DNA of 64,000 nucleotides from Rathayibacter caricis DSM 15933 (GTDB taxonomy: Bacteria; Actinomycetota; Actinomycetes; Actinomycetales; Microbacteriaceae), in the NCBI RefSeq assembly GCF_003044275.1, contig NZ_PZPL01000001.1, positions 3,224,001-3,288,000 on the forward strand. The letters run 5' to 3'. Under the pieces are notes generated by a model. That model did not search any database. It was not told the DNA's origin and saw only the letters and a list, made by a program, of their open reading frames with translations. A program made the translations under genes and the position numbers. Shown here piece by piece: positions 2,693 through 43,022 of the stretch. Numbering within the stretch: position 1 is the first letter of the stretch; every line of letters begins with the position of its first letter.

Positions 2693-2816
2693 CTGATTCG
2701 GAGCCGGTCCCTGCCCGGCTCCGCGCAGTCGGCTTCCCGAGGCGGTCCCGCAGGTGGAGCGTCCTGCGTCCGGCTACGCCGATCCGCTGACACGCGGATC
2801 GCCGGTTCGCCTGCGC
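2693..2816 (+). repeat. Paired-hairpin intergenic element, copy 1
   Basis: The element begins with hairpin H1 (arms GGAGCCGG at 2700-2707 and CCGGCTCC at 2715-2722, loop of 7). A G/C-rich body with GCAGTCGGCTTCCCGAGG and GGTGGAGCG follows. It ends with hairpin H2 (arms GATCCGC at 2781-2787 and GCGGATC at 2794-2800, loop of 6) followed by GGTTCGCCT. It is nearly identical to copy 2, which starts about 210 bases to the right. The H1 end faces the 5' side of the YebC-type gene. Confidence 0.85.
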
Positions 2817-2908
2817 CTTTGAGGGAGCCGACCCCGCGCGGCTCCACGCAATCACGGCGCCCACTCGGAGCCGGTCCCCGACCGGCTCCGCGCAGTCGAC
2901 GGCGCCCA

Positions 2909-3033
2909 TTCGGAGCCGGTCCCTGCCCAGCTCCGCGCAGTCGGCTTCCCGGAGTGGTCGCGCAGGTGGAGCGACCTACGTCCGGCTACGCCGATCCGCT
3001 CGCACGCGGATCGGCGGTTCGCCTCGCGCGGTG
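2909..3033 (+). repeat. Paired-hairpin intergenic element, copy 2
   Basis: Same orientation and order as copy 1: ATTCGGAGCCGGTCCCTG at the left, the GCAGTCGGCTTCCC body, then H2 with arms GCCGATCCGC (2990-2999) and GCGGATCGGC (3006-3015), which is a perfect 10-bp stem. A partial third H1-like unit (TCGGAGCCGGTCCCC) lies between copies 1 and 2 near 2866-2890, so the H1 module alone has been duplicated. Confidence 0.85.
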
Positions 3034-3107
3034 ACCGGGCTGCCGCTCGAAGGACAGAGTCCGATGCGGGCGTCGGGGCCAGGACGCTGCCGCAGGATCG
3101 GGAAGGT

Positions 3108-3147
3108 GGGTCTCGATACGGCGCTGCGCGCCTACTCGACCAGCAGT
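3108..3147 (+). repeat. TCGATACG...ACTCGACC stem-loop repeat, copy 1
   Basis: A 40-base unit with the frame GGTCTCGATAC ... CTACTCGACCAGC around a small stem-loop GGCGC-tgc-GCGCC. The same frame with a different but still paired stem occurs at 3256, 3356 and 42739. I recognise this frame as a frequent intergenic repeat in Microbacteriaceae; that is recollection, not a search. Confidence 0.8.
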
Positions 3148-3255
3148 GGGGGGTGTGGCCCTGAAGCAGCGGCGGTGGGATGCCGGACGGACGGACGCGG
3201 CGTCGGCTCCCGCACGATCGGTGAGGGTGGGCATCCTTGGAAGCGATCCCGACCT

Positions 3256-3299
3256 CCTTGCTGGTCGAGTAGCCCCGAAGGGGCGTATCGAGACCCACG
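3256..3299 (-). repeat. TCGATACG...ACTCGACC stem-loop repeat, copy 2 (inverted)
   Basis: Inverted copy reading CTGGTCGAGTAG ... GTATCGAGACC on the plus strand. The central stem-loop is GCCCC-gaa-GGGGC. The stem bases differ from copy 1 on both sides, so pairing is preserved. Confidence 0.8.
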
Positions 3300-3355
3300 T
3301 CTTTCAGAAGATCCGCCATTTCCCCGCCCCGCGCCGGCACCGAAGGCGCCCCCTC

Positions 3356-3394
3356 CGCTCGATACGGCGCTGCGTGCCTGCTCGACCAACAGGA
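3356..3394 (+). repeat. TCGATACG...CTCGACC stem-loop repeat, copy 3
   Basis: Direct-orientation copy (CGCTCGATACGG ... CTGCTCGACCAACAGG) with the stem GGCGC-tgc-GTGCC, which keeps pairing through one G-U. It is slightly more diverged than copies 1 and 2. Confidence 0.7.
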
Positions 3395-3436
3395 GGCAGT
3401 GTCCCGACTGGCAGGGGCCGGATCGGCGACCACCCG

Positions 3437-3553
3437 CGAGCCGAATCGGCGATTCGCGTGCCAGCGAATCGCCCTAGGCGGACGCCGGACGCTCCATCCG
3501 CGCGACCACGCCGCGAAGCCGACCGCGCCGAGCCGGGCAAGGACCGGCTCGGA
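3437..3553 (-). repeat. Paired-hairpin intergenic element, copy 3
   Basis: Minus-orientation copy. H2 lies at 3448-3473 with perfect 10-bp arms GGCGATTCGC and GCGAATCGCC around the loop gtgcca. H1 (CGAGCCGGGCAAGGACCGG) lies at about 3535-3553, just past the 3' end of the Fpg/Nei gene and its own terminator. Compared with copies 1 and 2, the H2 stem carries C-to-T and G-to-A changes on opposite arms that keep the pairing. Confidence 0.8.
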
Positions 3554-3554
3554 C

Positions 3555-3601
3555 GCGGTTGCTGAAGCAGCCGGCTGCGCCGGCTACTTCAGCAACCGCG
3601 A
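3555..3601 (-). terminator. Terminator-like inverted repeat overlapping the Fpg/Nei stop codon
   Basis: Two 22-base arms (3555-3576 and 3580-3601) separated by 3 bases. In the minus-strand transcript the only imperfect pair is a U-G at the first base of the TAG stop codon; the other 21 pairs are Watson-Crick. The upstream arm is made of the last codons and the stop of the Fpg/Nei gene. There is no U-tract, which is normal for actinobacterial terminators. Confidence 0.75.
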
Positions 3602-4444
3602 GAGAACACGGTCCGCGAGGGGCTTCCCGTTGGTCTGGCAGGTGGGGCAGTACTGGAGGGTGGAGTCGGCGAAGATCACCTGGCGGATCGTGTCGTCGCA
3701 GACGGGGCAGGCCTCGCCGGTCCGGCCGTGCACGCGCATGCCGAGCTTCTTCTCCTTCTTGAGGTCGGCGGCGTGCAGCCCCTCGGCACGGCCGAGCGCC
3801 TCCTCGAGGGTGTAGCGCAGCGCCGAGTAGAGGCGGTCGAGCTCCTCGGCGGTGAGGGTAGCGGGCTTGAACGGCGACATGCGGGCGACGTGCAGGATCT
3901 CGTCGGAGTAGGCGTTGCCGATGCCGGCGATCCGCGACTGGTCGCGCAGCACGCCCTTCAGCTGGGCACGACCGGCGGTCGCCAGGATCGCACCGAGGAT
4001 CTCGCGGGTGAAGGCGGGGTCCAGCGGATCGGGTCCGAGCCGGGCCGCGCGGTCGACGTCGCGCGGGTCGGCGACGATCGAGAGGGCGAGGCTCTTCCTC
4101 GTGCCGGCCTCGGTCACGTCGATCCCGGAGCCGTCCTCGAGGACGAAGCGGGCGGCGAGCGGTCCGCGGCCGGGCTTCACGGGAGCCGTCGGCCGCTCGG
4201 GGCGCCAGCGCACCCAGCCCGCGCGGGCCAGATGCAGGAGCACGTGCGCGTCACCCACCGCGAAGTCGAGGAACTTGCCGTGCCGCTCGACTCCGTGCAC
4301 CGGCTGCCCGGCAAGGGAGGACGGAGGGATCGCGACGGTCTTGAGCGCCGAGATCGCGAACACGTCGAGCCGCTCGAGGACGTGACCGCCGAGCCGCCCG
4401 TCGAGATCGCGCGCGAGCGCCTGCACTTCGGGGAGTTCGGGCAT
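3584..4444 (-). CDS. Fpg/Nei-family DNA glycosylase/AP lyase
   Basis: Base-excision repair glycosylase. The ATG at 4444 was chosen over an upstream in-frame ATG because it exposes MPELPEV, and the family needs Pro at position 2 as the catalytic nucleophile and Glu at position 3. The 286-residue protein has the family's Lys in VERHGKFLDF, the helix-two-turn-helix region with QSRIAGIGNAYSDEIL, and a C-terminal zinc finger (CPVC ... CPTC). Overall it looks like the actinobacterial Fpg-like branch rather than classical MutM, so I leave the symbol blank. It lies between pdxT and the YebC gene, and its terminator overlaps the stop codon. Confidence 0.9.
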   Translation of the reverse strand: MPELPEVQALARDLDGRLGGHVLERLDVFAISALKTVAIPPSSLAGQPVHGVERHGKFLDFAVGDAHVLLHLARAGWVRWRPERPTAPVKPGRGPLAARFVLEDGSGIDVTEAGTRKSLALSIVADPRDVDRAARLGPDPLDPAFTREILGAILATAGRAQLKGVLRDQSRIAGIGNAYSDEILHVARMSPFKPATLTAEELDRLYSALRYTLEEALGRAEGLHAADLKKEKKLGMRVHGRTGEACPVCDDTIRQVIFADSTLQYCPTCQTNGKPLADRVLSRLLK

Positions 4445-4493
4445 GGCCCTACCCTGCCGCGCACCACCGACGCGGTCCACCCCCGCGCGACGG

Positions 4494-5150
4494 TCAGGCT
4501 CCGAAGCGCGTCGCCGCGACCTTCCGCAGGAACAGCTCGTGGAAGCGGTAGTCGCCCGTGATCTCCGGGTGGAACGACGTGCCCATCAGGTTGCCCTGCT
4601 CGACCGCGACGACCCGGCCGTCCGCGATCGCGGCGAGGGCGGTCGCCCGCTCCCCCAGCTCCTCCACGATGGGCGCGCGGATGAAGACCGCATGCACGGG
4701 AGGGTCGCCGATCACCGGCACGTCGAGGTCGGTCTCGAAGGAGTCGAGCTGGTTGCCGAAGGCGTTGCGGCGCACGGTCACGTCGAGGCCGCCGAAGCTG
4801 TGCTGGCCCTCGATCCGGTCGAGCACGCGGTCGGCGAGCATGATTAGGCCGGCGCAGGTGCCGTAGGCGGGCAGGCCCGCCGCGATCGCCTCGCCGATCG
4901 GCTCCGCGAGTCCGAAGAGCCGCGAGAGCTTGTCCATGACCGTCGACTCGCCGCCGGGGATGATGAGGCCGGCGACCGAGGCGAGCTCGGCCGGGCGGCG
5001 CACGAGCACCACCTCCGCGCCGAGCTCGCGCAGCACGGCCGCGTGCTCGCGGAAGTCGCCCTGGAGCGCCAGGACGCCGACCCGGAGCCCCTCGAGGGAC
5101 TCGCGGGTCTCGCCCTCCCCCGCGACGCGGGGCCCGGTGCTACCAGCCAC
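4494..5150 (-). CDS. pdxT: PdxT glutaminase subunit of pyridoxal 5'-phosphate synthase
   Basis: PdxT hydrolyses glutamine and passes ammonia to PdxS in the deoxyxylulose-independent vitamin B6 pathway. The 218-residue class I glutamine amidotransferase shows the oxyanion strand [12 protein letters not shown], the nucleophile Cys in YGTCAGLI and the His-Glu pair in SFHPE near the end. The N-terminus carries about 22 residues before VGVLALQGD, longer than usual, so an internal start is possible. The annotated start overlaps the end of pdxS by 11 bases, which indicates coupled translation. Confidence 0.95.
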
Positions 5151-6060
5151 GCTCGGAGAGGCGGTGCGGCGCGGGGACGTCGGACACGTTGATGCCGACC
5201 ATCGCCTCGCCGAGTCCGCGGGACGCCTCCGCGATGACCTTCGCGTCGTCGTAGAAGGTGGTCGCCTTGACGATCGCCGCGGCGCGCTTGGCCGGGTCGC
5301 CCGACTTGAAGATGCCGGAACCGACGAAGACGCCGTCGGCGCCGAGCTGCATCATGAGCGCCGCGTCGGCCGGAGTGGCCACGCCACCGGCCGTGAACAG
5401 CACGACCGGGAGCTTGCCGGTCTGCGCGATCTCGGCGACGAGGTCGTAGGGCGCCTGCAGCTCCTTGGCCGCGACGTACAGCTCGTCCTTGGTCATCGCC
5501 TTGAGGCGGTTCACCTCGGCCGAGATGGTGCGGATGTGCTTGGTGGCCTCGGAGACGTCGCCGGTGCCGGCCTCCCCCTTGGAGCGGATCATCGCCGCGC
5601 CCTCGGTGATGCGGCGCAGCGCCTCGCCCAGGTTGGTCGCTCCGCAGACGAAGGGGACGGTGAACTTCCACTTGTCGATGTGGTTCACGTAGTCGGCCGG
5701 CGAGAGGACCTCGGACTCGTCGATGTAGTCGACGCCGAGCTCCGAGAGCACCTGCGCCTCGACGAAGTGGCCGATACGGGCCTTCGCCATGACGGGGATC
5801 GAGACGGAGGAGACGATCGCGTCGATCAGGTCGGGGTCGCTCATCCGCGCGACTCCGCCCTGCGAGCGGATGTCGGCCGGGACGCGCTCGAGCGCCATGA
5901 CGGCGACGGCGCCGGCGTCCTCGGCGATGCGGGCCTGCTCGGCCGTGACGACGTCCATGATCACGCCGCCCTTGAGCATCTCGGCGAGACCGCGCTTGAC
6001 GCGGCTGGAGCCGAACTGCTCGGACGCGGCGGAGGAGGAGGGAGTGGTGGTGTCGGTCAT
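5140..6060 (-). CDS. pdxS: PdxS pyridoxal 5'-phosphate synthase subunit
   Basis: PdxS is the dodecameric synthase that condenses a pentose phosphate, a triose phosphate and PdxT-derived ammonia into pyridoxal phosphate. It has 306 residues, the standard length. The family sequences [28 protein letters not shown], the Lys-bearing [14 protein letters not shown] and [11 protein letters not shown] are all present. It is the first gene of pdxST and starts 177 bases after the end of the HIT gene. That gap contains a 24-base tandem repeat. Confidence 0.97.
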
Positions 6061-6094
6061 GATCGCGGGTCCTGTTTCTCTGCTGTGTCTCCAG

Positions 6095-6160
6095 CCGACG
6101 GCTGGGCTCTGTCGCCCGCCGACGGCTGGGCTCTGTCTGGGGCCGACGGCCGGGCGGCGT
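6095..6160. repeat. 24-bp tandem repeat ahead of pdxS
   Basis: Three units with an exact 24-base period, marked by GACGG at 6097, 6121 and 6145. Units 1 and 2 share GCCGACGGCTGGGCTCTGTC exactly, and unit 3 is diverged. Unit 1 can also fold (CCAGCC-gac-GGCTGG). It lies in the pdxS leader, downstream of the HIT gene on the same strand, so it could act in termination or attenuation; nothing proves this. Confidence 0.75.
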
Positions 6161-6237
6161 CTCGCGTCGGAGGCGCTGCCGCACGTGCCGCCGACAGCGC
6201 CGTCCAGTCTACCGAGGTCCGCCTGCGCGGACCCCGC

Positions 6238-6792
6238 CTACTCGGCGGGCCAGGCGGCGGCGATGCTCGCGCGGACGTCGCCCAGGAGCTGCGGCAGCGC
6301 CTTCGTCCGGGCGATGATCGGGAAGAAGTTCGCGTCGGTCGCCCAGCGCGGAACCACGTGCTGGTGCAGATGCGCGGCGATCCCGGCTCCGGCGACCGCG
6401 CCCTGGTTCATCCCGAGGTTGAAGCCGTCGTTGTTCGACACCTCGCGGATCACGCGCATCGCGGTCTGCGTGAGGGCGCCGATCTCGGCCACTTCTTCCG
6501 GGGTGGCCTCGTCGTACAGCGGGATGTGGCGGTACGGGCAGACGAGGAGGTGGCCGGAGTTGTACGGGAAGAGGTTGAGCAGCACGTACGCGTGCTCGCC
6601 GCGGGCGACGATCAGCGCCTCCTCGTCGCTCAGCGTGGGCGCGACGCAGAACGGGCAGTCGTCGGCTCCGGGCTGCCCCTTCTGGATGTAGACCATGCGG
6701 TGCGGGGTCCACAGGCGCTGGAACTCGTCGGGGACGCCCGCGAGGTGCGCCGACCCCTCCGCTCCCTCGGGGACGAGCTCGTCCACGCTCAC
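6238..6792 (-). CDS. HIT-family nucleotide hydrolase/phosphorylase
   Basis: A 184-residue histidine-triad protein. It has CPFC followed by a long HIT fold ending in the active-site triad [10 protein letters not shown], and belongs with the actinobacterial proteins next to thrS that act on diadenosine polyphosphates (Rv2613c type). The GTG start at 6792 overlaps the thrS stop by 4 bases (GTGA) and was chosen for that reason. Coupling to thrS makes sense if it removes Ap4A made by aminoacyl-tRNA synthetases; that link is inference. Confidence 0.92.
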
Positions 6793-8792
6793 ACCTGCGC
6801 CTTCGACGCGATCGCCTCGCGGATGCGCGCCACGGCGTCGGCGACGGGGATGCCGTTCTCCTGGGTGCCGTCGCGGAAGCGGAAGCTGACCGCGCCGGCG
6901 TCGCGGTCCTTCTCGCCGACGATGATCTGGAACGGCACCTTCTGCAGCGTGGCGTTGCGGATCTTCTTCTGCATCCGGTCGCTGGAGTAGTCGATCTCGG
7001 CGCGGACGCCGGCACGCTTGAGCTCGCCCACGACCTCCTCGAGGTAGGGCAGGTACTCGTCCGCGATCGGGATGCCGACGACCTGCACGGGCGAGAGCCA
7101 GACGGGGAACGCCCCGGCGTAGTGCTCGGTGAGGATCGCGAAGAAGCGCTCGATCGAGCCGAACAGCGCGCGGTGGATCATCACGGGGCGCTTCTTGGTG
7201 CCGTCGGACGCGGTGTACTCCAGCTCGAAGCGCTCGGGCTGGTTGAAGTCGAGCTGGATCGTCGACATCTGCCAGGTACGGCCGATCGCGTCGCGCGCCT
7301 GCACCGAGATCTTCGGACCGTAGAACGCGGCTCCGCCCGGATCCGGGACCAGCTCGAGACCCGACTCCACCGCGACCGCGCGGAGCGACTCGATGGCCGC
7401 CTCCCACTGCTCGGGGGCGCCGACGAACTTCGGGTTGCCCTCCTCGTTGGTGGAGAGTTCGAGGTAGAAGTCGTTGAGGCCGTAGTCGCGGAGGACCTGG
7501 AGCACGAACTCGAGGTTGCGGGTGAGCTCCGCCGCCACGTCCTCCTGCGTCACGTAGATGTGCGCGTCGTCCTGGGTGAGCCCGCGCACGCGGGTGAGGC
7601 CCTGCAGGGTCCCGCTCTTCTCGTAGCGGTAGACGGTGCCGAACTCGGCCAGGCGCAGGGGCAGCTCGCGGTAGCTGCGGCCGCGCGAGCGGAAGATCAG
7701 GTTGTGGAACGGGCAGTTCATGGGCTTGAGGTAGTAGTCCTGGCCCTGGCGGGTGACGTTGCCGTCCTCGTCCTGCAGCTCGTCGAGGTGCATCGGGGGG
7801 AACATGCCCTCGGAGTACCACTGCAGGTGCCCGCTGGTGGTGAAGAGGTCGCCCTTGGTGATGTGCGGCGTGTAGACGAGCTCGTAGTCGTGCGCGAGCA
7901 GCTGCTCCCGCATGTACTGCTCGATCTCGTAGCGGATGATGCCGCCCTTGGGGTGGAACACCGCGAGACCGGAGCCGATCTCGTCCGGGAACGAGAACAG
8001 GTCGAGCTCGTGCCCGAGCTTGCGGTGATCGCGGCGCGCGGCCTCCTCGAGGCGGGCCTGGTGCGCGCGCAGCTCGTCCTTCGTCGGCCAGGCCGTGCCG
8101 TAGACGCGCTGCAGCTGGGGGTTCTTCTCGGAGCCGCGCCAGTAGGCCGCGGCGTTGCGGGTGAGCGCGTAGCCGTTGCCGATCATGCGGGTGTTGGGCA
8201 GGTGCGGACCGCGGCAGAGGTCCTTCCAGACCGTCTCGCCCGAGCGCGGGTCGACGTTGTCGTAGATCGTCAGCTCGGCGCCGCCGACCTCGACGGACTC
8301 CTCGTCACCACCGCCGCCCTTGATTCCGATGAGCTCCAGCTTGTAGGGCTCGCCGGACAGCTCGGCGCGGGCCTCGTCCTCGGTCACCACACGGCGCACG
8401 AAGCGCTGCCCCTGGCGGACGATGCGGTCCATCGCCTTCTCGAGCGCCTTCATCGCCTCGGGCGTGAAGGGCTCCTCGACGTCGAAGTCGTAGTAGAAGC
8501 CGTCGGTGACGGGCGGGCCGATGCCCAGCTTCGCGTCCGGGTTGATCTGCTGCACCGCCTGGGCGAGCACGTGCGCCGCGGAGTGGCGGAGGATGTTCAG
8601 CCCGTCCGGCGAGGAGATCAGGACCGGCTCGATGCGGTCGCCCGGCACGACGTCGGCGGCCAGGTCCTTCAGCTCGCCGTTGACCCGGATCGCGACGACG
8701 GCCCGGTCGGAGAAGTGCGTGAAGCCCGTCCCGGCCTCGGTCACCACCGCGACGGACTCGTTCTCGGACGGATTCGACGGTTCGTTCGACAC
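6789..8792 (-). CDS. thrS: Threonyl-tRNA synthetase
   Basis: Charges tRNA-Thr and edits misacylated serine. The 667-residue protein has an N-terminal TGS-like segment, then the editing domain ([10 protein letters not shown]). The class II core follows, with zinc ligands in [17 protein letters not shown] and [11 protein letters not shown], and then an anticodon-binding domain. The GTG at 8792 was chosen over a much longer open frame because GAGGAG lies 9 bases upstream and the protein then starts with a short acidic tail before the TGS region. It is first in thrS-HIT-pdxS-pdxT. Confidence 0.96.
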
Positions 8793-8889
8793 GCGCGGAC
8801 ACTCCTCAGGGCTTCGCCAACCCCTCGACTTTAGTCGCCCGTGTGCGCCGGGACGTTCCGGAGCCGGCTGCGGCAGCGACGGACGCACG

Positions 8890-9123
8890 TCAGCCGAGCA
8901 CGGCCCGGACGCGCTCGTCCAGACCGCGGAGGGCGTCGACGAGCTCGCCGCGGTCGGCCCCGTCGAGCAGCAGGTCGTTCTGCACGAGGTGGCGCACGAG
9001 GACGGCCTCGACCCCCTCGGGGAGGGCGTCCGAGACGAGGGCGCCCTCGAGGACGGCGAGGACCGCCACCACCGCGAGGGCGTCGTCGACGGAGAGCGGC
9101 AGCGCGCTGCGGTCCGTGTCCAT
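8890..9123 (-). CDS. Small acidic helical protein, related to the one at 9956-10147
   Basis: A 77-residue product of unknown function, predicted all-helical and acidic. It resembles the 63-residue protein on the other side of the TetR gene: both contain LEG-x-LV-x-DAL in the first half and a Leu/Asp/Arg-rich LxDAL-x-RL end. It is divergent from the TetR gene, whose operator lies 180 bases upstream of its start. The ribosome-binding site is weak (GGATCGGAT), so the start is uncertain. The paralogy supports it being real. Confidence 0.6.
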
Positions 9124-9302
9124 GCATCCGATCCCGGACGCAGGTCGCGTGCGTCCGTCTGGGTCCCCTCCACCTTGGCAAAACCCTCGGCGGAGAGAGC
9201 CGGAGAACGCCCGGCGGCTTCGTTTCCCGTACAGGCCCGCGGACGGGCGGGCTCCGCTCCTCGGGCTCGACTCCGCGCTGGTACGGTGTGCGAGACCGGC
9301 CC

Positions 9303-9328
9303 GGCACGCTGTACCGGTACACCGTGCC
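9303..9328. promoter_or_regulatory. Palindromic operator upstream of the TetR gene
   Basis: A 26-base near-perfect palindrome: outer arms GGCACG and CGTGCC around the perfect 12-base core TGTACCGGTACA, with one mismatched symmetric pair. Its position 46 bases before the TetR ATG, inside the likely 5' leader, is typical of autorepression by TetR-family dimers. A possible -10 (TACGGT, 9282-9287) lies just upstream. Confidence 0.8.
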
Positions 9329-9373
9329 AGTGTCGGGGTGGGACGCGGACAGACCGATCAGGAGGAGGATCCG

Positions 9374-9952
9374 ATGAACCGACGCGAGGAGATCCTCCGG
9401 GCGGCCCGGGCGCTCGCAGCCGAGCACGGAGTCGCGGCGCTGAGCGTCCGTGCCGTCGCGGCGCGCGCGGGCATCGGGGCCAGCACGTTGCGCCACCACT
9501 TCCCCACGCAGCGTGCTCTCTACGACGCGGTGGTCGCGGAGCTCTTCGACCCCGGTCTCGGCGATCTGCGGATCGACGACCGGCGCGTCGATCCGCTCGA
9601 GAGACTGCTGGAGTGCGTCGGGCAGTTCCTTCCGGCCGAGGACGCCCCTCCCGCCCTGGGCGGCTGGTTCGCGCTCCACGCGGCGTCCGCCGGTCCGGGC
9701 TCGACGGAGCAGGGCCGCGCTCTGGTCGCCGCCCTCGACGCGAGCAGCCGCGCGAGCACCGTGCGCTGGATCGATCTGCTCGCCGAGGAGGGCGTGCTGC
9801 GGCGCGGTCCGCTCGAGCAGCACGTGGAGCTGATCCTCGCGCTCGTCGACGGACTGCGGCTGCGGATGCTCGTGCCCGGGAGCGGGACCACTCCGGGCCG
9901 AGCGCTCGTCCTCCTGGCGGCGACCCTCGAGCGGGCCGTGATCCGCGACTGA
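9374..9952 (+). CDS. TetR/AcrR-family transcriptional regulator
   Basis: A 192-residue regulator with an N-terminal TetR helix-turn-helix: [16 protein letters not shown], then [22 protein letters not shown], residues about 4-45. The C-terminal ligand-binding half is of unknown specificity. The ATG at 9374 has a strong AGGAGGAT site 5 bases upstream, and the long open frame before it is not coding. The upstream palindrome at 9303 suggests self-repression and possibly control of the divergent 77-residue gene. The effector cannot be deduced. Confidence 0.93.
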
Positions 9953-9955
9953 TCG

Positions 9956-10147
9956 TCAGTCCGAGGCGCGGAGTCGTGTCGCCAGCGCGTCGAGCTCCCG
10001 ACCGAGCACGTCGGACTCCTGCGCGGCGAGTCCGCGGGCGAGCGCGTCCCGCTGCCGATCGTCGAGGGCGTCCGCCGCGACGAGCCCTTCCAGCATCGAG
10101 ACGAGATCGGCGAGTGCCGCCGCGTCCCGTCGATCGAGCCCGTCCAT
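9956..10147 (-). CDS. Small acidic helical protein, related to the one at 8890-9123
   Basis: A 63-residue protein of unknown function. The ATG at 10147 has a strong GAGGAGG site 5-6 bases upstream, which decides the start and supports the gene. Predicted helical, with [10 protein letters not shown] in the middle and [10 protein letters not shown] near the end, matching the 77-residue protein upstream of the TetR gene. It converges with the TetR gene: only 3 bases separate the stops, and the two TGA codons pair in the small palindrome GACTGA-tcg-TCAGTC (9947-9961). Confidence 0.75.
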
Positions 10148-18966: not shown

Positions 18967-19041
18967 TGGTGGGCGATACTGGGATCGAACCAGTGACCTC
19001 TTCCGTGTCAGGGAAGCGCGCTACCGCTGCGCCAATCGCCC
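18967..19041 (-). tRNA. tRNA-Val (GAC)
   Basis: Cloverleaf with acceptor stem GGGCGAT/ATCGCCC, D-arm GCGCAGCGGTAGCGC, anticodon stem CTTCC/GGAAG with loop CTGACAC (anticodon GAC), and T-arm with GGTTCGATCC. The CCA end is encoded (18967-18969). It is last in a Gly-Cys-Val tRNA operon and is followed by a strong terminator. Confidence 0.96.
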
Positions 19042-19080
19042 GTTGCTCCGCGAGGAGCGCCTCGTTCGTCGGAACGATCG

Positions 19081-19151
19081 AGGTGGATACGGGATTCGAA
19101 CCCGTGTATACGGCTTTGCAGGCCGCTGCCTCGCCTCTCGGCCAATCCACC
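19081..19151 (-). tRNA. tRNA-Cys (GCA)
   Basis: Acceptor stem GGTGGAT/ATCCACC, D-arm GCCGAGAGGCGAGGC, anticodon loop CTGCAAA (anticodon GCA) on stem CGGC/GCCG, and T-arm GGGTTCGAATCCC. The discriminator is T, and CCA is not encoded. It is the middle gene of the Gly-Cys-Val operon. Confidence 0.96.
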
Positions 19152-19250
19152 GTGTATTGGGTTCGGTGTCGGCGGCCCGCGAGGCGAGCCGACCGGGTGG
19201 AGAAGACCCGGAGGCCCTCTCAGAAACATCGGCCCGGAGGCCGATATTCG

Positions 19251-19322
19251 AGCGGATGACGAGATTCGAACTCGCGACCCTCACCTTGGCAAGGTGATGC
19301 GCTACCGCTGCGCCACATCCGC
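19251..19322 (-). tRNA. tRNA-Gly (GCC)
   Basis: Acceptor stem GCGGATG/CATCCGC, anticodon stem CACC/GGTG with loop TTGCCAA (anticodon GCC), and T-arm GAGTTCGAATCTC. CCA is not encoded. It is first of the Gly-Cys-Val operon, an order also known in mycobacteria. Confidence 0.96.
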
Positions 19323-19618
19323 ATGTAGGTCGTATTCAGTTGTACTACTTCGGAGCCACGTCTTGCCGGACGTTTCCCGTCTTCGCCTCCCCGGCGCTTT
19401 CGCTGCCCGGCTCGACCTAGAAGACTTTATAGGACGGCCGCGGGAGAAACCAAATCGAGCGGACGCGGATCCGGGCCGTGTCGACGACTTGCCCGTCTTT
19501 CCGCCGGAAACCGCCCCGACACGCCCCGTTCACCCGGGCGTGGCGCACCGCCGTGGTGCTCCGCGCGCTTCGGGATCCGCTAACATCGTCTCTCGGGTCG
19601 TCCACAAGACGGCCTCCT
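19323..19618. promoter_or_regulatory. Promoter region between divergent tRNA genes
   Basis: A 296-base gap with no gene. It is less GC-rich at its left end (CGTATTCAGTTGTACTACTT) and holds GACTTTATAGGA near 19422. A plausible -10 for tRNA-Val(CAC) is TAACAT at 19581-19586. I could not assign -35 boxes with confidence. Confidence 0.45.
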
Positions 19619-19691
19619 GGGCGATTGGCGCAGTTGGTAGCGCGCTTCCTTCACACGGAAGAGGTCATCGGTTCGAGTCCGGTATCGCCCA
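19619..19691 (+). tRNA. tRNA-Val (CAC)
   Basis: Acceptor stem GGGCGAT/ATCGCCC, anticodon stem CTTCC/GGAAG with loop TTCACAC (anticodon CAC), and T-arm CGGTTCGAGTCCG. The 3' end reads ACCC, so CCA is not encoded. The body is nearly identical to the tRNA-Val(GAC) of the neighbouring divergent operon, which suggests a local duplication followed by an anticodon change. Confidence 0.96.
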
Positions 19692-35494: not shown

Positions 35495-35500
35495 GCTCCC

Positions 35501-36388
35501 CTACTCCTCGTTCTCGGTGCGGACCGGCGCACCGGTTCCGGGAAGGTTGCTGTTGCGGTCGTACTCCGCGCCGAGCTGGCCGGTCTGGCCCGCGTCGCGC
35601 AGCGACTGGATGTAGTCGTCGTACGTGTCTCGGTCGACGACCTCGACGTTGAAGAGCATCGCGGAGTGGTACTCGCCGCAGAGCTCGGCGCACTTGCCGG
35701 CGTACGTGCCCTCCTTGAGCGGCGTGACGTACATGTAGTTCGTCTTGCCGGGGATCATGTCCTTCTTGTAGAGGAAGTCGACGACCCAGAAGGAGTGGAT
35801 GACATCGCGGGCGTCGAGCTGGATCTTGATCTTCTCGCCGACGGGCAGGTAGAGGGTGGGCACCTCGGACTCGACGAGCGAGCCGTTGGCGTCGCCGTCG
35901 GAGGACTCGTACTGGCCCTGGATGCCGGCGGAGTACACGTCCTCGTCGACGTAGTTGAAGTCCCACGCCCACTGCTTGCCGTAGACCTGGATGGTCTCGT
36001 CGGGGTTCTCGTAGGGCTCCTCGATCGCCGCCTGATCGCGGGCGGTGAAGGCGAAGAAGCCGATCACCAGGATCAGCGGCACGATCGTGTAGAAGATCTC
36101 GATCGGCATGTTGTAGCGCAGCTGCACCGGGAGGCCCGTCTGGCCCTTCCGGCGCCGGTACACGACGACGGCCCAGATCGTGAGCCCCCACGTGACGACG
36201 CCGACGGCGAGGAGGACGATCCAGGAGGTGACCCAGAGCCCGATGACCCGGTCGACGTGGTTCGTCGTGCCGGGTTCGGTGGGGAGCCAGCCCTGGAGCT
36301 GCTCCTGCGTGCAGCCCGCGAGAACGAGGGCGAGGGCTCCTGCAACGGGGGCAGCGACCCATCTGCGGAGACGGCGATTGAAGCGCAC
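35501..36388 (-). CDS. ctaC: Cytochrome c oxidase subunit II (lipoprotein)
   Basis: A 295-residue subunit II: a lipoprotein signal ending LVLAGC (lipobox, Cys about residue 26), two membrane helices, and an extracellular cupredoxin domain with CuA ligands in CAELCGEYHSAM and the aromatic YGKQWAWDFNY region. The GTG at 36388 follows GAAAGG. A possible -10, TAATAC (36431-36436, minus), would give a leader of about 36 bases. Confidence 0.95.
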   Translation of the reverse strand: MRFNRRLRRWVAAPVAGALALVLAGCTQEQLQGWLPTEPGTTNHVDRVIGLWVTSWIVLLAVGVVTWGLTIWAVVVYRRRKGQTGLPVQLRYNMPIEIFYTIVPLILVIGFFAFTARDQAAIEEPYENPDETIQVYGKQWAWDFNYVDEDVYSAGIQGQYESSDGDANGSLVESEVPTLYLPVGEKIKIQLDARDVIHSFWVVDFLYKKDMIPGKTNYMYVTPLKEGTYAGKCAELCGEYHSAMLFNVEVVDRDTYDDYIQSLRDAGQTGQLGAEYDRNSNLPGTGAPVRTENEE

Positions 36389-36603
36389 CGGTGACCTTTC
36401 GGAAGACTGGGGACCAGTTCACACGAAACTGTATTAGACCGGCTCCAGCCTACCTTCCCCGTCGGGACCGGAGTGCACCGCCGTCCGCTCTTGACCTCCG
36501 CGGCCGAGGGTGCGAAGAACGACAGACGGCGCCCGACCGCCCGCTTCTGCGAGCCGTTGGACGCCGTCCGGGAGGTGCTGGAGCGGCGTGTCGCCGCCGC
36601 CGA

Positions 36604-36966
36604 TCAGTGGAAGCTGTCGCCGCAGGCGCAGCTGCCGCCCGCGTTGGGGTTGTCGATGGTGAAGCCCTGCTTCTGGATGGTGTCCTCGAAGTCGATCGAG
36701 GCGCCGTCGAGGTACGGGACGCTCATCTTGTCGACGACGAGGCCGACGCCCTCGAACTCGACCGCCGCATCGCCGTCGAGGGTGCGCTCGTCGAAGTAGA
36801 GCTGGTAGATGAGACCCGAGCAGCCACCGGGCTGGACGGCGACGCGCAGGCGCAGGTCGTCGCGGCCCTCCTGCTCGAGGAGGCTCTTGACCTTCGCGGC
36901 GGCGACGGGGGTCATCGAGACGCCGTGCGCGGTCTTCTGGTCGACGGTCGATGTCGTGTCGGACAT
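36604..36966 (-). CDS. erpA: HesB/IscA/ErpA-type iron-sulfur cluster assembly protein
   Basis: A 120-residue A-type carrier that delivers Fe-S clusters to apoproteins. The three conserved cysteines are in GGCSGL (residue about 49) and SCACGDSF near the end. It fits next to the cytochrome oxidase genes, as in other actinobacteria, with 215 bases to ctaC. Start MSDTTSTVDQ at 36966. Confidence 0.92.
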   Translation of the reverse strand: MSDTTSTVDQKTAHGVSMTPVAAAKVKSLLEQEGRDDLRLRVAVQPGGCSGLIYQLYFDERTLDGDAAVEFEGVGLVVDKMSVPYLDGASIDFEDTIQKQGFTIDNPNAGGSCACGDSFH

Positions 36967-37102
36967 GTCACTCCTCGAGGGGGTCGGTGCGGTGATGACG
37001 GCGTGGCGTCGGGGGGACGGCGTGCTGCCGTCGGTGATGCCACACGATTCTACGGTGGCAACTGCTCCGCGGAGCCGGGTATTCCGGATCCGTGCGGCCG
37101 CG

Positions 37103-38521
37103 TCAGCCGCGGTGGGCCGCCGCGCGCAGCAGGAAGAGCGCCTCCGTCTGCGCGGCCCGCTTGAAGACGCCGAGGTGGAGGGACTCGTTGGGGCTGTGCG
37201 CGCGCGAGTCGGGGTCCTCCACGCCGGTCACCAGGATCTGGGCGGCCGGGAACTCCCGGACGAGGTCGGCGATGAAGGGGATGCTGCCTCCCGCGCTCGT
37301 CTCCAGCGCGTCGCGGCCCCAGGCGTCCGCCATCGCCTGCTTGACGAGGCCCACGGCCCAGCCCGAGGTGTCGACGAGGAAGGCCTCCCCCGTGTCGACG
37401 TCGTCGATCTCGAGGTGGGCGCCGAACGGAGCCTGATCGCGCAGGTGGCGCTCGAGCGCGGCGAAGCCCTCGGGCGCCTCCTGGCCGGGGGCGATGCGCG
37501 CGCTGATCTTGACCCGCACGGAGGGGCTCAGGGTGTTGGAGGCGTCCACGACGCTCGGGGCGTCGATCCCCGTGACCGTGATCGACGGCTTGGACCAGAT
37601 CCGCGAGAGGAAGGGGCCGGAGCCGATCGGCGAGACGCCGTCGAGCAGGCCGGCGTCGCGGCGGAGGTCGCCCTCGGTGATCTCGGGGACGGCGCCGTCG
37701 TGCTCGCGCAGACCGTCGACGGCGACCGAGCCGTCCTCGTTCCACAGGGTGGAGAGCAGGCGCACCGTCGCGAGCATCGCATCCGGGACCGCTCCGCCGA
37801 GCATCCCGGAGTGGGAGGCGTGGTCGAGGGTCCGGACGGTGAGCGTGAAGGTGACGTTGCCGCGCAGACCCACGGTCAGCGACGGAGTGTCCACGTCCCA
37901 GTTGTCGCTGTCGGCGACGACGATGACGTCGGCGCGCAGGGCGTCGTGGTGCTCGCGGAGGAAGGTCGGGAACGACCGCGAGCCGAACTCCTCCTCGCCC
38001 TCGATGAAGAGCACGAGGCCGAGGTCGTGGTCGTCACCCGCCACCTCGCGCAGCGCGCGGACGGCGGCGAGGTGGGACACCACTCCGGCCTTGTCGTCGG
38101 CCGCGCCCCGGCCGTAGAGGCGGTCGCCGCGCACGGTCGGCTCGAACGGAGGGGTCTCCCACGAGGTCTCGGCGCCCTGCGGCTGGACGTCGTGGTGCGC
38201 GTAGAGGAGGACCGTGGGAGCGCCGTTGCGCGCGGCACGGGTGGCGAGGACGGCCGGCTGCCCGAGGACTCCCGAGTCGCCGATCGTCGACCGGCGGATC
38301 GACACGTCCTCGAAGGCCCCGGTCTCGCGGGCGAGCTCGGCGATCGCCTCGGCGCTCGCGGCCACCCGCGTGGCGTCGAAGCCGTCCCACGAGACGGAGG
38401 GGATGCGCACGAGGCGCCCGAGCTCCGCGAGCGAGCGCGGCAGGTCGTCGCGGACGGCGGCCAGGACCGCCTCCTCGGCTGCTGGGAGAGTGGACGTCGG
38501 AGTCGGAGCGTCGTGGGCCAT
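37103..38521 (-). CDS. M20-family dipeptidase
   Basis: A 472-residue zinc peptidase of the M20 family. Metal ligands are in LLYAHHDVQPQG, GRGAADDKAGV, IEGEEEFGSRSF and SDNWD; LDHASHSGMLGG marks the lid/dimerisation domain, and the final His lies in DSRAHSPNES. It is of the cytosolic dipeptidase type. The ATG at 38521 was chosen over an upstream in-frame Met because TAAGAT (38529-38534) lies 7 bases before it, implying a leaderless mRNA. It is divergent from the DUF3043 gene. Confidence 0.9.
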   Translation of the reverse strand: MAHDAPTPTSTLPAAEEAVLAAVRDDLPRSLAELGRLVRIPSVSWDGFDATRVAASAEAIAELARETGAFEDVSIRRSTIGDSGVLGQPAVLATRAARNGAPTVLLYAHHDVQPQGAETSWETPPFEPTVRGDRLYGRGAADDKAGVVSHLAAVRALREVAGDDHDLGLVLFIEGEEEFGSRSFPTFLREHHDALRADVIVVADSDNWDVDTPSLTVGLRGNVTFTLTVRTLDHASHSGMLGGAVPDAMLATVRLLSTLWNEDGSVAVDGLREHDGAVPEITEGDLRRDAGLLDGVSPIGSGPFLSRIWSKPSITVTGIDAPSVVDASNTLSPSVRVKISARIAPGQEAPEGFAALERHLRDQAPFGAHLEIDDVDTGEAFLVDTSGWAVGLVKQAMADAWGRDALETSAGGSIPFIADLVREFPAAQILVTGVEDPDSRAHSPNESLHLGVFKRAAQTEALFLLRAAAHRG

Positions 38522-38563
38522 GCAGGTAATCTTAAGAGACCCTCGATTCCAAGGACGTTCACC

Positions 38564-39136
38564 GTGGCCAAGCACCCGATCGCAACCGACACGCCCGACG
38601 ACGCCGACTCGGCCCCGTCGACCGGCAAGGGGCGGCCGACGCCGACCCGGCGCGAGCGCGAGCTCGCCAACCAGCGTCCGCTCGTGACGACCGATCGCAA
38701 GCAGGCCGCGCGCGACGCCCGCGAGAAGGCCGCCGTGGCGCGCGAGCAGGCCCGGATCGGCCTCGCCGCCGGTGACCAGCGCTACCTGCCGCTGCGCGAC
38801 AAGGGCCCGCAGCGCAAGTTCGTGCGCGACTGGGTCGACGCGCGCTTCAGCCTAGGCGAGTTCCTCATCCCCGTGATGGTCGTCGTCCTGCTGCTGAGCT
38901 TCTTCCCGCAGCCAGAGCTCCAGTACGTCACGCTCATCGTCCTCTGGGCGTTCTTCCTCGTCGCCGTGCTCGACTGCGTGCTGCTCGGCATGCGCATGCG
39001 GAAGAAGCTCGGGGAGCGCTACGGAGCCGACAAGGTCGAGAAGGGCATCCGCTGGTACGCCGCGATGCGCGCCCTCCAGCTCCGCGTCATGCGCCTCCCC
39101 AAGCCCCAGGTGAAGCGCGGGGCGTTCCCCGAGTGA
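38564..39136 (+). CDS. DUF3043 membrane protein
   Basis: A 190-residue actinobacterial protein of unknown function. A charged N-terminus rich in Arg/Glu (residues 1-80) with PTPTRRERELANQRPL and GPQRKFVRDWVDARFSLGEF precedes two membrane helices (about 106-148) and a short basic tail. The GTG at 38564 follows AAGGACG. It is divergent from the dipeptidase gene (42 bases apart) and converges, across repeats, with pyrD. Confidence 0.88.
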   Translation: MAKHPIATDTPDDADSAPSTGKGRPTPTRRERELANQRPLVTTDRKQAARDAREKAAVAREQARIGLAAGDQRYLPLRDKGPQRKFVRDWVDARFSLGEFLIPVMVVVLLLSFFPQPELQYVTLIVLWAFFLVAVLDCVLLGMRMRKKLGERYGADKVEKGIRWYAAMRALQLRVMRLPKPQVKRGAFPE

Positions 39137-39154
39137 GCGCGTAGCGCTCGCTCG
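39130..39154 (+). terminator. Hairpin overlapping the DUF3043 stop codon
   Basis: Two 11-base arms (CGAGTGAGCGC and GCGCTCGCTCG) with loop gta. The stop TGA is inside the left arm. The only non-Watson-Crick pair is U-G at the first base of the stop, as in the hairpin at 3555-3601. Confidence 0.65.
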
Positions 39155-39590
39155 GAAAACTGGTGCTCGCTTGCTCGGCCTGCGGCCTCGCCGCAGTCGG
39201 CTGAGCAGGGGGTCGCGTTCCGAGGAGCGTCTCGCCTCCGACTAGGTCGATCCGCTGGCACGCGGATCGACCGTTCGTCTTCTCGCGCCCGAGTGGTGAG
39301 GTGACTCGGCCGCGGGACGGGCAGTGACGACGGAGCGACGAGCTTCGTAGCGGTCGTCGCTCCCTCCAACCGGGATGCCGTCGATTTCCTGATCTCCACC
39401 GTCTCCAACGGCGACATGATGGAGTCGTCGGGCGGCTGCCCTCTGCTCTCCTCGCAGCACCTCCGACATCCGTCGACGTCGGGAAGTCGAGCTCACGGTC
39501 GAGGTCCGAGAGCAGAGCTCTGCGGAGCACGAGACGCGTCCGACCGATAACCTCTGTTCGGTCTTCGGCGAGGAGATCTTGCGGAGGCGA
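39155..39590. repeat. Gene-free gap with paired-hairpin element, copy 4 (plus orientation)
   Basis: The element occupies about 39170-39290: a diverged H1 part, GCCGCAGTCGGCTGAG, and H2 with 11-base arms GGTCGATCCGC (39245-39255) and GCGGATCGACC (39262-39272) around tggcac, then GTTCGTC. The outer pairs of H2 differ from the other copies on both arms. From 39291 to 39590 I see no gene and no clear structure. Confidence 0.7.
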
Positions 39591-39731
39591 ACGGGTGATT
39601 CGCGTGTCAGCGAATCGCCCTAGCCGAGCGCAAGACGCTCTGCAGGACGCGACCGCCTCGGAAGGCCGACTGCGCCGAGCCGGGCAGGGACCGGCTCGGG
39701 ATCAGCACCGCGGGCAGGGACCGGCTCGGGA
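39591..39731 (-). repeat. Paired-hairpin intergenic element, copy 5
   Basis: Minus orientation. H2 at 39594-39619 has arms GGTGATTCGC and GCGAATCGCC around gtgtca. The H1 module (GAGCCGGTCCCTGCCCGG read on minus) occurs twice, the outer copy immediately after the pyrD stop. The body keeps GAAGGCCGACTGCGCCGAGC. Confidence 0.82.
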
Positions 39732-40751
39732 TCAGCGCAGCGCGCGATTCACCTTCGCAGCCCACAGGGGGCCCTCGTAGATGAACGCGGTGTAGCCCTG
39801 GACGAGGGTGGCGCCGGCGGCGAGACGCTCCTGCACGTCGGCGGCGGTCTCGACGCCTCCGACCGAGACGACGCAGAACTCCGCGGGGACGACGGCGCGG
39901 ATCACGCGGAGGACGGCGAGCGAGCGGGCGGCGAGCGGGGCTCCCGAGAGCCCTCCGGCACCGGCGGCGTCGACGACGGAGGCGGCCGTCTCGAGGCCCT
40001 CGCGGGAGAGGGTCGTGTTCGTGGCGATGACGCCGTCGAGCCCGAGGCGCACGGCGAGCTCGGCGACGCGCACGACCTCGTCGTCGGAGAGGTCGGGGGC
40101 GATCTTCACGAGCAGCGGAGTCGTGTCGGCCGCGTCCTTCACTGCGGCGAGCAGCGGCTCCAGCTTGTCGATCTCCTGCAGCCCGCGCAGGCCGGGGGTG
40201 TTCGGAGAACTCACGTTGACGACCAGGTAGTCGGCGAGTGGCGCCAGCATCCGGGCGCTGATCAGGTAGTCCTCGATCGCGTCGTCGACGTCGACCGCGC
40301 GGCTCTTGCCGATGTTGACGCCGATGACCGGACGCCCGCGGACCCCGCGGAGTCGGGCCAGTCGACCCGCGGCCGCCCGCGCCCCGAGGTTGTTGAAGCC
40401 CATCCGGTTGATGACGGCGCGGTCCGCGACGAGGCGGAAGAGGCGCGGTCTGTCGTTGCCGGGCTGGGGGCGGGCCGTGATCGTGCCCACCTCCACGTGC
40501 CCGAAGCCCAGCGCGCCCAGCCCCAGGACGGCCGTGGCGTTCTTGTCGAAGCCGGCGGCGACTCCGAACGGCGTCGCGAAGCGCAGCCCGAGGGTCTCGA
40601 CCGAGGTGTCGTGCTTCGGCATCGTGAAGCGGCGCGCGAGGGGCGCGACGAGGGCGAGGCCGCGGATGACCGGGAAGGCGAGGTGATGCGCGCGCTCCGG
40701 ATCGATGCGCCGCAGGACCGTGCGGAACAGGAGCGGGTAGACGGCGGCCAT
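39732..40751 (-). CDS. pyrD: Dihydroorotate dehydrogenase (quinone), class 2
   Basis: The fourth step of pyrimidine synthesis, membrane-associated and quinone-linked. The 339-residue protein has the class 2 N-terminal helix ([20 protein letters not shown]), FGVAAGFDKNA, the catalytic Ser region NVSSPNTPGLR, and FMN-phosphate loops SVGGVETAADV and GYTAFIYEGP. The start overlaps the nrdR stop by one base (TGATG-type junction). A paired-hairpin element follows the stop directly. Confidence 0.95.
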   Translation of the reverse strand: MAAVYPLLFRTVLRRIDPERAHHLAFPVIRGLALVAPLARRFTMPKHDTSVETLGLRFATPFGVAAGFDKNATAVLGLGALGFGHVEVGTITARPQPGNDRPRLFRLVADRAVINRMGFNNLGARAAAGRLARLRGVRGRPVIGVNIGKSRAVDVDDAIEDYLISARMLAPLADYLVVNVSSPNTPGLRGLQEIDKLEPLLAAVKDAADTTPLLVKIAPDLSDDEVVRVAELAVRLGLDGVIATNTTLSREGLETAASVVDAAGAGGLSGAPLAARSLAVLRVIRAVVPAEFCVVSVGGVETAADVQERLAAGATLVQGYTAFIYEGPLWAAKVNRALR

Positions 40752-41227
40752 CAGAGCTCCTCGACGTCACGCGCAGGCCCGCTGCGCTCGGCGCGCAGGA
40801 GGGTGATGGCCGAGTCGAAGTCGTCGAGCGAGTCGAAGGCCTGGTACACGCTCGCGAAGCGCAGGTACGCGACCTCGTCGAGCTCGCGCAGCGGTGCGAG
40901 GATCGCGAGGCCGATGTCGTTCGCGTCGATCTGCGAGGCGCCGGTGGAGCGGATGCTCTCCTCCACCCGCTGGGCGAGCACCGCGAGATCGGAATCGGTG
41001 ACGGGGCGGCCCTGGCAGGCCTTCCGCACGCCGCTGACGATCTTCTCGCGGCTGAACGGCTCGACCACTCCGCTGCGCTTGATCACGACGAGGCTGGCGG
41101 TCTCGGTGGTCGAGAAGCGGCGACCGCACGAGGGGCACTGGCGCCGGCGTCGGATCGAGAGGCCGTCGTCGCTGGTGCGCGAGTCGATCACCCGGGAGTC
41201 GGGGTGCCGGCAGAACGGGCAGAACAT
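40751..41227 (-). CDS. nrdR: NrdR repressor of ribonucleotide reductase genes
   Basis: The 158-residue NrdR has an N-terminal zinc ribbon ([17 protein letters not shown], then [12 protein letters not shown]) and an ATP-cone ([19 protein letters not shown], about residues 50-68). It senses dATP/ATP and binds NrdR boxes upstream of nrd genes, which are not in this window. It lies 18 bases after hisD on the same strand. Confidence 0.96.
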
Positions 41228-41245
41228 CGCGGAGTGCCTCTCGGG

Positions 41246-42550
41246 TCAGGCGAAGCGCGCGTCGACGGCGTCGCCGTGCGCGGGGAGCGCCTCGGCGTCG
41301 CTGAGCGCGCGGATGTGCGGGGCGACGCGAGCGAGGGCGCCGCGGTCGTAGCTGATGAGCTGCTGCGGGCGCAGGAACGTGTAGGCGCCCAGACCGGAGG
41401 AGAACCGCGCCTGGCCCATCGTGGGCAGCACGTGGTTGGAGCCGGCCAGGTAGTCGCCGAGGCTGACCGGCGCCGTGGGGCCGAGGAAGATCGCGCCCGC
41501 GTCGTGGATGAGCGCGGCGGTCGCCTCGGGGTCGCTCGTGTGCAGCTCGAGGTGCTCGGGGCCGTAGGCGTCGCTGAAGGCGCAGGCGGTCTCGAGGTCG
41601 TCCACGATGACGAGTGCCGACTGGGGACCGTCGAGCGCGATCGCCACGCGCGCGGAGTGGTGGGTCGTCGCGGCCTGACGCTCGACCTCCGCGCCGACCG
41701 CGCGGGCCAGCTCGGCGTCGTCCGTGACCAGCACGGCCGAGGCCGCCTCGTCGTGCTCGGCCTGGCTGACCAGGTCGGCCGCGATCAGACGGGGATCGCC
41801 GGTGGAGTCGGCGATGACGAGGATCTCCGTCGGGCCGGCCTCGGAGTCGATCCCGACCTGGCCGAGCACCTGGCGCTTCGCGGTCGTGACCCAGATGTTG
41901 CCGGGGCCGGTGATCATGCCGACGGGCTCGAGGCCGATCGACTCGACACCGTAGGCCAGGGCGGCAACGGCGCCCGCGCCGCCTGCGGCGTAGACCTCGT
42001 CGACGCCGAGGAGACCCGCTGCCGCCAGGATCGTCGGGTGAACGGCGCCGCCGAACGCCTTCTGCGGCGGGGAGACGATCGCGATGGACTCGACGCCTGC
42101 GGCCTGAGCCGGGACGACGTTCATCACGACGCTCGAGGGGTACACGGCCTTGCCGCCGGGGACGTAGAGGCCCGCGCGGGCGACCGGCGTCCAGCGCTGG
42201 ACCACGGTCGCGCCGTCGTCGAGCACGGTGGTGCGCTCGGGCGGGATCTGCGCGGCGCTCGCGCTGCGCACCCGGGAGATCGCCTCGTCGAGGGCCGAGC
42301 GGATGGCCGGATCGAGGTCGCGGACGGCGGCGGCGATGTGCTCGGCCGGCACCCGCAGGTGCGGCTGACGGACTCCGTCGAGTCGCTCGGACTGGTCGAG
42401 GAGCGCCTCCGCACCGCGGGCTCGGACGTCGGCGATGAGCTCGGCGACGATCGGTCCGACGTCGGCGGAGGTACCCGGGTTGCGCGGCACGAGGGCGAGC
42501 AGCTCGGCGGCGGAGGGACGACGGCCGCGGAGGTCGAGAGTCTGGATCAT
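41246..42550 (-). CDS. hisD: Histidinol dehydrogenase
   Basis: The last two oxidations of histidine synthesis. The 434-residue zinc enzyme has VPAQAAGVESIAIVSPP, GAGAVAALAYGVESI, GPTEILVIAD, LVSQAEHDEAA and the catalytic region GPEHLELHTSDPEA. The ATG at 42550 lies 9 bases after TAGACT (42560-42565), suggesting a near-leaderless mRNA. The other his genes are not adjacent. Confidence 0.95.
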   Translation of the reverse strand: MIQTLDLRGRRPSAAELLALVPRNPGTSADVGPIVAELIADVRARGAEALLDQSERLDGVRQPHLRVPAEHIAAAVRDLDPAIRSALDEAISRVRSASAAQIPPERTTVLDDGATVVQRWTPVARAGLYVPGGKAVYPSSVVMNVVPAQAAGVESIAIVSPPQKAFGGAVHPTILAAAGLLGVDEVYAAGGAGAVAALAYGVESIGLEPVGMITGPGNIWVTTAKRQVLGQVGIDSEAGPTEILVIADSTGDPRLIAADLVSQAEHDEAASAVLVTDDAELARAVGAEVERQAATTHHSARVAIALDGPQSALVIVDDLETACAFSDAYGPEHLELHTSDPEATAALIHDAGAIFLGPTAPVSLGDYLAGSNHVLPTMGQARFSSGLGAYTFLRPQQLISYDRGALARVAPHIRALSDAEALPAHGDAVDARFA

Positions 42551-42738
42551 GGCCGCCCCAGTCTATCGGCCGCCCCCGCCGCCCTCCGGCGCTGCGGCGC
42601 CGCTGGGCGGCTCTGCTCGCGGGCTGTCGCCGGTCGCTCCGGGACATCGCGGGCAGATCATCTACGGGCAGCGGAGCGAAGTCGCGTCGGTGCCGACGAG
42701 CAGGACGGGGTCTCCTGGGATCCGCTGCGCGGGTGCAA

Positions 42739-42778
42739 GGGTCTCGATACGCCGCTCCGCGGCTACTCGACCAGCAAA
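42739..42778 (+). repeat. TCGATACG...ACTCGACC stem-loop repeat, copy 4
   Basis: GGTCTCGATACGCC ... GGCTACTCGACCAGC with stem GCCGC-tcc-GCGGC, a third version of the paired core. It lies in the gene-free gap 42551-43025 between hisD and dnaE. Confidence 0.82.
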
Positions 42779-42857
42779 GGGGGAGCCGGCGCCATTCGTC
42801 GGGAGGCGCACAGAGCCGCGCCGCCGCAGGCGCGCCTCCCCACCTCGCAGCACCCCC

Positions 42858-43022
42858 GAGGCGAACCGGTGATCCGCGTGCCAGCGGATCGCCGTAGCCG
42901 AACGCACCCCGCTCCACGCGACGCACCCCGTCGCGAAGCCGACCGCGCCGGGCCGGGCAGGGACCGGCTCGCAATAAGCACAGCGGACCGCGCCGGGCCG
43001 GGCAGGGACCGGCTCGGAATCC
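42858..43022 (-). repeat. Paired-hairpin intergenic element, copy 6
   Basis: Minus orientation. H2 at 42868-42893 has arms GGTGATCCGC and GCGGATCGCC around gtgcca. The H1 module (GAGCCGGTCCCTGCCCGG on minus) occurs twice, the last one ending 4 bases from the dnaE stop. The rest of the hisD-dnaE gap (42551-42738, 42779-42857) shows no gene. Confidence 0.83.

Follow-up and report, generated by a model that had tools for sequence, protein, structure and literature searches.

What kind of element occupies the gaps around dnaE and its neighbors in Rathayibacter caricis DSM 15933, and what might it do there? An earlier note on this 64,000-nt stretch of DNA (the window) described six copies of a sequence with two covarying hairpins, H1 and H2, with H1 facing the 3' end of a gene in four or five of them. 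All six copies were located, and covariance-model matches agree with them. Copies 1 to 3 are direct or inverted repeats of 115-134 nt that are 82-88% alike. Copy 1 (plus strand, 2699-2818) consists of H1 at 2699-2723 and a core from 2723 (model match 2723-2818, 89.6 bits), with the H2 palindrome at 2777-2804 flanked by an outer GGC/GCC at 2772-2774/2809-2811. Copy 2 (plus strand, 2911-3030) has H1 at 2911-2935, the core, and H2 at 2989-3016 (match 2935-3030, 90.7 bits). Between them, at 2820-2898 on the plus strand, lie two H1-only modules (family D2), the first degenerate and the second intact at 2866-2890. Copy 3 (minus strand, 3433-3553) has H1 at about 3528-3553 and H2 towards 3433 (match 3433-3528, 78.9 bits), and lies downstream of a minus-strand gene ending at 3584.

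The remaining copies also follow genes. Copy 4 (plus strand, 39170-39286; match 39191-39286, 88.3 bits) lies downstream of a plus-strand gene ending at 39136 and has a weak H1 before its core and H2, an exception to the description of H1 in every copy. Copy 5 (minus strand, 39579-39731; match 39579-39675, 94.9 bits) lies downstream of a minus-strand gene ending at 39732 and has a second, partial H1 at 39700-39731, while copy 6 (minus strand, 42853-43020; match 42853-42948, 82.0 bits) lies downstream of dnaE (which ends at 43026) and has a second H1 at about 42993-43018. The reported duplications of H1 (2820-2898, 39700-39731 and 42982-43020) are real. Copies 1 and 2 depart from the proposed link to gene 3' ends, which holds as a general one genome-wide: their H1 points at the 5' side of a gene that begins at 2609 on the minus strand and that we take to be yebC from a reading of its peptide. 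An Rfam scan of the window returned only four tRNAs above the gathering score and no match for the element; for the copy 5 region, E-values up to 10 gave four matches, all far below gathering scores. Four tRNA genes are clustered at 18970-19691. A record-level literature search found no description of the element.

The element is about 125 nt long and comprises, in H1 to H2 order, the GC-rich hairpin H1, the sequence CGC[A/G]GTCGGC, a core of about 45 nt, and H2, which has a six-base loop; the element ends near GTTCGCCT. The paired stem of H2 was described correctly, but H2 also includes an outer helix of 3 bp and a loop inside the stem, both of them overlooked; the commonest internal loop is TA/GTTC (69 of 206 parsed copies). 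The core is conserved, yet shows no covariation. Central helices predicted in it by RNAalifold gained no covariation support across 219 copies, and only one of nine predicted pairs shows any double change (two cells) in the A3 alignment described below. The motif GCGGCTGGTC, considered as a third conserved motif downstream, is not universal (48 of 223 copies, with some clustering in position, vs 27 of 223 after shuffling) and was rejected. No terminal inverted repeats were seen by eye in alignments of the copies.

A covariance model of 97 nt (R1), built from 25 copies with H1 left out, gave 53 matches in the same genome at E ≤ 1, of which 50 reach E ≤ 0.01; the six copies of the note are not the only ones. 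In 60 related genomes including this one, all 15 of the genus were positive with 10-69 matches each, and none of the 45 others was. In a family sample 10 of 398 genomes were positive, all of the genus, and in a phylum sample 1 of 396, which was this genome; both samples had ten candidates scored per genome, and all these taxon searches used Infernal's stricter filters, by which weak relatives of the element could be missed. A pattern scan of 84,980 species genomes, with a strict pattern that fits 48 of the 225 known copies, found 44 stretches, 43 titled Rathayibacter, with sp. Leaf185 among the carriers, and one titled 'Microbacteriaceae bacterium VKM Ac-2855'. Nine matches to a loose pattern in viral contigs were taken as chance. 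Within the genomes searched, the element is restricted to Rathayibacter.

The paired changes reported for H2 are real. In the A3 alignment (116 distinct rows), 305 cells are double-changed, compared with 91±11 in 500 shuffles, none of which reached 305, and with 31-68 in slid-partner controls; 91.9% of cells pair, a value favored by the fitting of A3 to the covariance model. An independent MAFFT alignment of 219 of the 225 unique copies also places the leading covarying pairs in H2. The signal comes from H2 and its outer helix, with almost none from the two predicted central helices. The outer helix occurs in many versions among the 206 parsed copies (GGC/GCC 75, GCG/CGC 38, GCC/GGC 29, CGC/GCG 14, CCG/CGG 13, and others), and 599 of its 618 cells are Watson-Crick, a figure inflated by best-register parsing. 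Base-pairing is preserved through sequence change, and covariation beyond shuffles and slid controls supports the proposed selection on the folded form.

H1 behaves differently: it changes mostly by replacement of the whole hairpin, unlike the pair-by-pair changes of H2. Its stem score is 10.8±3.0 over 225 copies (5.9±1.0 in shuffles), its last base has a fixed position ahead of the core in 145 of the 225, and its inner 7-mers take 101 different forms. In the 195 copies with a good stem there are 1853 Watson-Crick, 12 G.U, 10 A.C and 57 other pairs, as counted by a stem search that favors Watson-Crick pairs. The sequence varies from locus to locus, and frequently between orthologs at a given locus, but pairing is mostly kept. 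At site 2450367, for example, the orthologs have GTCCGGCGG/CCGCCGGAC, GCACGGCGG/CCGCCGTGC and GCGCGGCGG/CCGCCGCGC, and at site 3415333 the entire hairpin is different in three relatives. The stem finder gave no good H1 ending at the core at 1024071, 1207619, 2721602 and parts of 176067, 267126 and 1682230, where by eye some stems stop a few bases short of the core or carry long loops. Template-switch correction in replication can also keep hairpins perfect, and H1 pairing alone is for this reason weaker evidence of selection than H2.

For 47 of 51 copies the H1-side gene is on the same strand and ends at H1 (46 by a codon-score gene caller, plus copy 4, a miscall whose gene ends 54 nt before the core). 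The distance from stop codon to core is at most 100 nt in 35 of the 47; of the 12 with a longer one, 11 belong to arrays, as units after the first. The four remaining copies, at three loci, have H1 towards a gene start at a distance of 28-325 nt: copies 1 and 2 (yebC), the copy at 2751762 (downstream gene presumably dnaG) and the copy at 2335174 (presumably a BMP-type lipoprotein gene), the last two named from reading of the peptides. In one stretch (L103, 3316-3420) H1 is directly upstream of the dnaG start and adjoins TACGAT, a possible -10 box. Ten upstream genes that were scanned have unrelated functions (7 of 10 above a curated cut-off); the other gene calls rest on the codon-score caller. 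Beyond H2, the next gene has the same direction in 21 copies and the opposite in 27, with none called in three. The element is tied to transcription-unit boundaries.

The element probably marks where transcription should stop. As a tentative reading, which we give somewhat less than an even chance, it would be an element of about 125 nt, specific to the genus, that sets transcription boundaries, with H1 as the stop hairpin; a stopping action is suggested by its position and by occasional replacements. The unrelated functions of the scanned genes, the strand rule and the rewriting of H1 at orthologous ends with pairing mostly kept all fit such a role, as does the presence of other hairpins at some gene ends that lack the element: in relative G005 it is missing at 2291581 and 2319989, where another hairpin stands at the gene end, and in G003 at 3300842 the hairpin is kept and the core absent. 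The suggestion that the element serves as a terminator is likewise plausible from its 3'-end position, but H1 has no U-tract in either direction: in the sense direction it is followed by the conserved CGCRGTCGGCT, and in the other the sense side of H1 has T at 0.25 and A at 0.12, making the sequence after H1 richer in A than in U. Nor has a terminator any obvious need of a conserved, unpaired core.

As to mechanism, H1 would be set against the guarded gene, usually at its 3' end and at three loci at its start, and the core and H2 would form a folded module on its far side. Transcription from H2 through the core to H1 would yield the RNA of H2 and core first and then H1, and the module may act on polymerase nearing the gene from behind, whether as antisense entry at a 3' end or as read-through into a promoter. 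We give the antisense direction some weight because only in that direction is H1 the last feature before the guarded gene both at 3' ends and at the three starts. H1 alone may also terminate the gene's own transcript, and a factor may recognize the core. A stricter version, a directional transcription insulator in which RNA of H2 and core with a free-sequence H1 stops polymerase from behind and a genus-specific factor binds the core, seems unlikely to us; if true, it would protect 3' ends against antisense transcription and shield a few promoters against read-through.

A possible but more doubtful explanation, akin to the mobile element suggested in the note, is an interspersed repeat, similar to BIMEs or MITEs, which multiplied by transposing or being copied and settled next to gene-end hairpins; it would now pass down vertically, its tandem units growing or shrinking by recombination. 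The clearly homologous cores of paralogous copies, the tandem arrays with a period of about 124, the partial H1-only copies and the 10-69 copies per genome are as expected of such a repeat, and the H1 hairpins, with no sequence relation from one locus to the next, could have been terminators already in place that served as targets. At G013:C1:105638-107500 element units of either orientation form a long array, several of them spaced at period 124. Presence also varies: the dnaE gap has a copy in 9 of 12 relatives, and the pyrD gap has one in 4 of 13 and is empty in nine, which counts against a boundary role as well. The strict orientation and maintained pairing argue against a repeat of this kind, and the genome has no Y1 transposase. 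An origin from RAYT or IS200-like elements was rejected (no PF01797 match in this genome; 5 of 14 control genomes positive). Mobilization by reverse transcriptase was likewise set aside, the only such gene in the genome lying at 1.38 Mb with none of the copies listed within 170 kb; this gene (G000:C1:1379506-1380144, outside the window) is matched by retron-type models. For insertion behind terminators in the manner of group IIC introns the orientation fits, but no hairpin-only ancestor was found, and the best case (G011 vs G007 at the pyrD gap) is equally explained by deletion.

The age of the sites also bears on this explanation. Twenty-two sites that carry a copy in this genome were traced to orthologs in six relatives, and 86 of 88 possible stretches were obtained from four of them (two sites are missing for G013; G007 and G011 were left out). 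A correctly oriented R1 match is held by 73 of the 86 (69 of 80 plus 4 of 6), at sites chosen for a copy in this genome, where gains elsewhere would stay invisible; most of them being old speaks against this explanation. Four of the 11 negatives among the first 80 show a truncated core by eye, and counting by a looser motif put the number at 70 of 80 but missed some model hits and took in at least one spurious match (L269). The 2335174 site has a copy in 4 of 4 relatives. The dnaG site has one in only two of four (G010 and G013, none in G003 or G005), a further point against a boundary role. At yebC the core is visible in this orientation in 5 of 8 relatives (G010, G013, G003, G007 and G002), and is not present in G008, G005 or G011 within the 330 nt examined. 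At 1207619 there are two candidate genes each in G010 and G005, none of the four followed by a copy. Junctions at the empty gaps are too diverged for any target duplication to be read. These comparisons suggest that the copies are mostly old, and that retention dominates at the chosen sites, with some turnover.

A multicopy family of small-RNA genes, transcribed from H2 through the core to H1 as terminator and converging on the neighboring gene, is also unlikely. This explanation draws on a strand asymmetry in H2, where mismatches read in gene-sense orientation are A.C in 111 cases, G.U in 32 and other in 106; slips counted by 80% clusters are 47 A.C vs 21 G.U events (p 0.002), and a second count gave 86:15 (44:12 for distinct stems). 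The excess of A.C over G.U is consistent with the boundary element as well, but much of it comes from pairs 58-81 and 59-80, which tolerate other mismatches too, and without them a hand count gives 23:12 clusters (p estimated at about 0.09). H1 has no strand bias (G.U 12, A.C 10); the orientation of its GNRA-type loops (23 vs 2) stems from a single common loop and was left out of account. The internal loop TA/GTTC sets U against C in the sense strand and G against A in the other. Together these are moderate evidence, a hint that the strand antisense to the H1-side gene may be the folded one. Room for a small-RNA gene exists: in the 48 copies with a called gene beyond H2, at least 135 nt separate that gene from the core. 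Against it stand the close spacing to stop codons at most loci, which would be odd for such genes, and the A-richer, not U-rich, sequence after H1 in that direction.

Nor is there a conserved promoter-like block beyond H2 in the G013 and G003 orthologs, and a promoter there was rejected. Between -15 and +85 the binned identity to G000 is 0.69-0.88 (G013) and 0.52-0.68 (G003), past +105 it is mostly 0.4-0.6, and in both relatives it drops just past H2, in keeping with the boundary element; the nearest relative, G010, is non-discriminating, its identity declining only gradually (0.72 at +105). A sense-strand 3'UTR RNA with H1 first, acting in stability or processing, fits the position just past stop codons in the gene's own direction, and is very unlikely given a wobble asymmetry that points the opposite way and three loci at gene starts.

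Gene ends that lack the element are in some cases occupied by a second palindromic repeat, TCTCGATACGCC....GCTACTCGACCAGC, which occurs 161 times in the genome when up to three mismatches are allowed (64 exact). It lies in the window at 3106-3145, 3259-3298, 3358-3402 and about 42739-42776, and is sometimes tandem at about 121 nt. It is found in element-lacking alleles of 2474542 and 3294840 in G005, and at 1207619 in G010 and one of the two G005 candidates; such alleles weigh against the boundary element. The two families differ in chromosomal distribution. With dnaA at 1.027 Mb and copies up to 3 kb apart counted as one locus, 26 of 34 element loci fall in the opposite half of the chromosome (p 0.003; 3, 5, 12 and 14 by quarters from dnaA), as do 13 of 16, 9 of 11 and 6 of 9 of the best-scoring copies listed for three relatives. 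Exact copies of the second repeat lie there at 10 of 46 merged loci (quarters 25, 11, 5 and 5). This opposite bias is a testable oddity.

What makes the element of wider interest is a strongly selected fold at dozens of gene ends in one plant-associated genus. Its stems, rewritten in place, offer natural replicates for the study of transcript boundaries without U-tracts and cases of perfect-hairpin replacement within a lineage. It also bears on whether selection acts on antisense entry at the 3' ends of genes.

Several known systems resemble the element in part. The bcr1-type repeats of Bacillus cereus are likewise interspersed, close to the element in size, and have a predicted structure. Intrinsic (bidirectional) terminators are like H1, which is a strong, GC-rich gene-end hairpin and alternates there with other hairpins; H1 differs in lacking a U-tract and in being attached to the conserved core and, beyond it, to another hairpin, which covaries. 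REP/BIME sequences, according to one account (PMC3733652), are short, palindromic, many-copy, extragenic and clustered repeats with a GTAG or CGTC tag at one end, and roles in termination, mRNA stability and supercoiling have been proposed for them. The Rathayibacter element is similar in being multicopy, palindromic, extragenic and clustered; it differs in having no Y1/RAYT gene in its genome, and in being a 125-nt composite with a conserved core, changeable stems and strict orientation.
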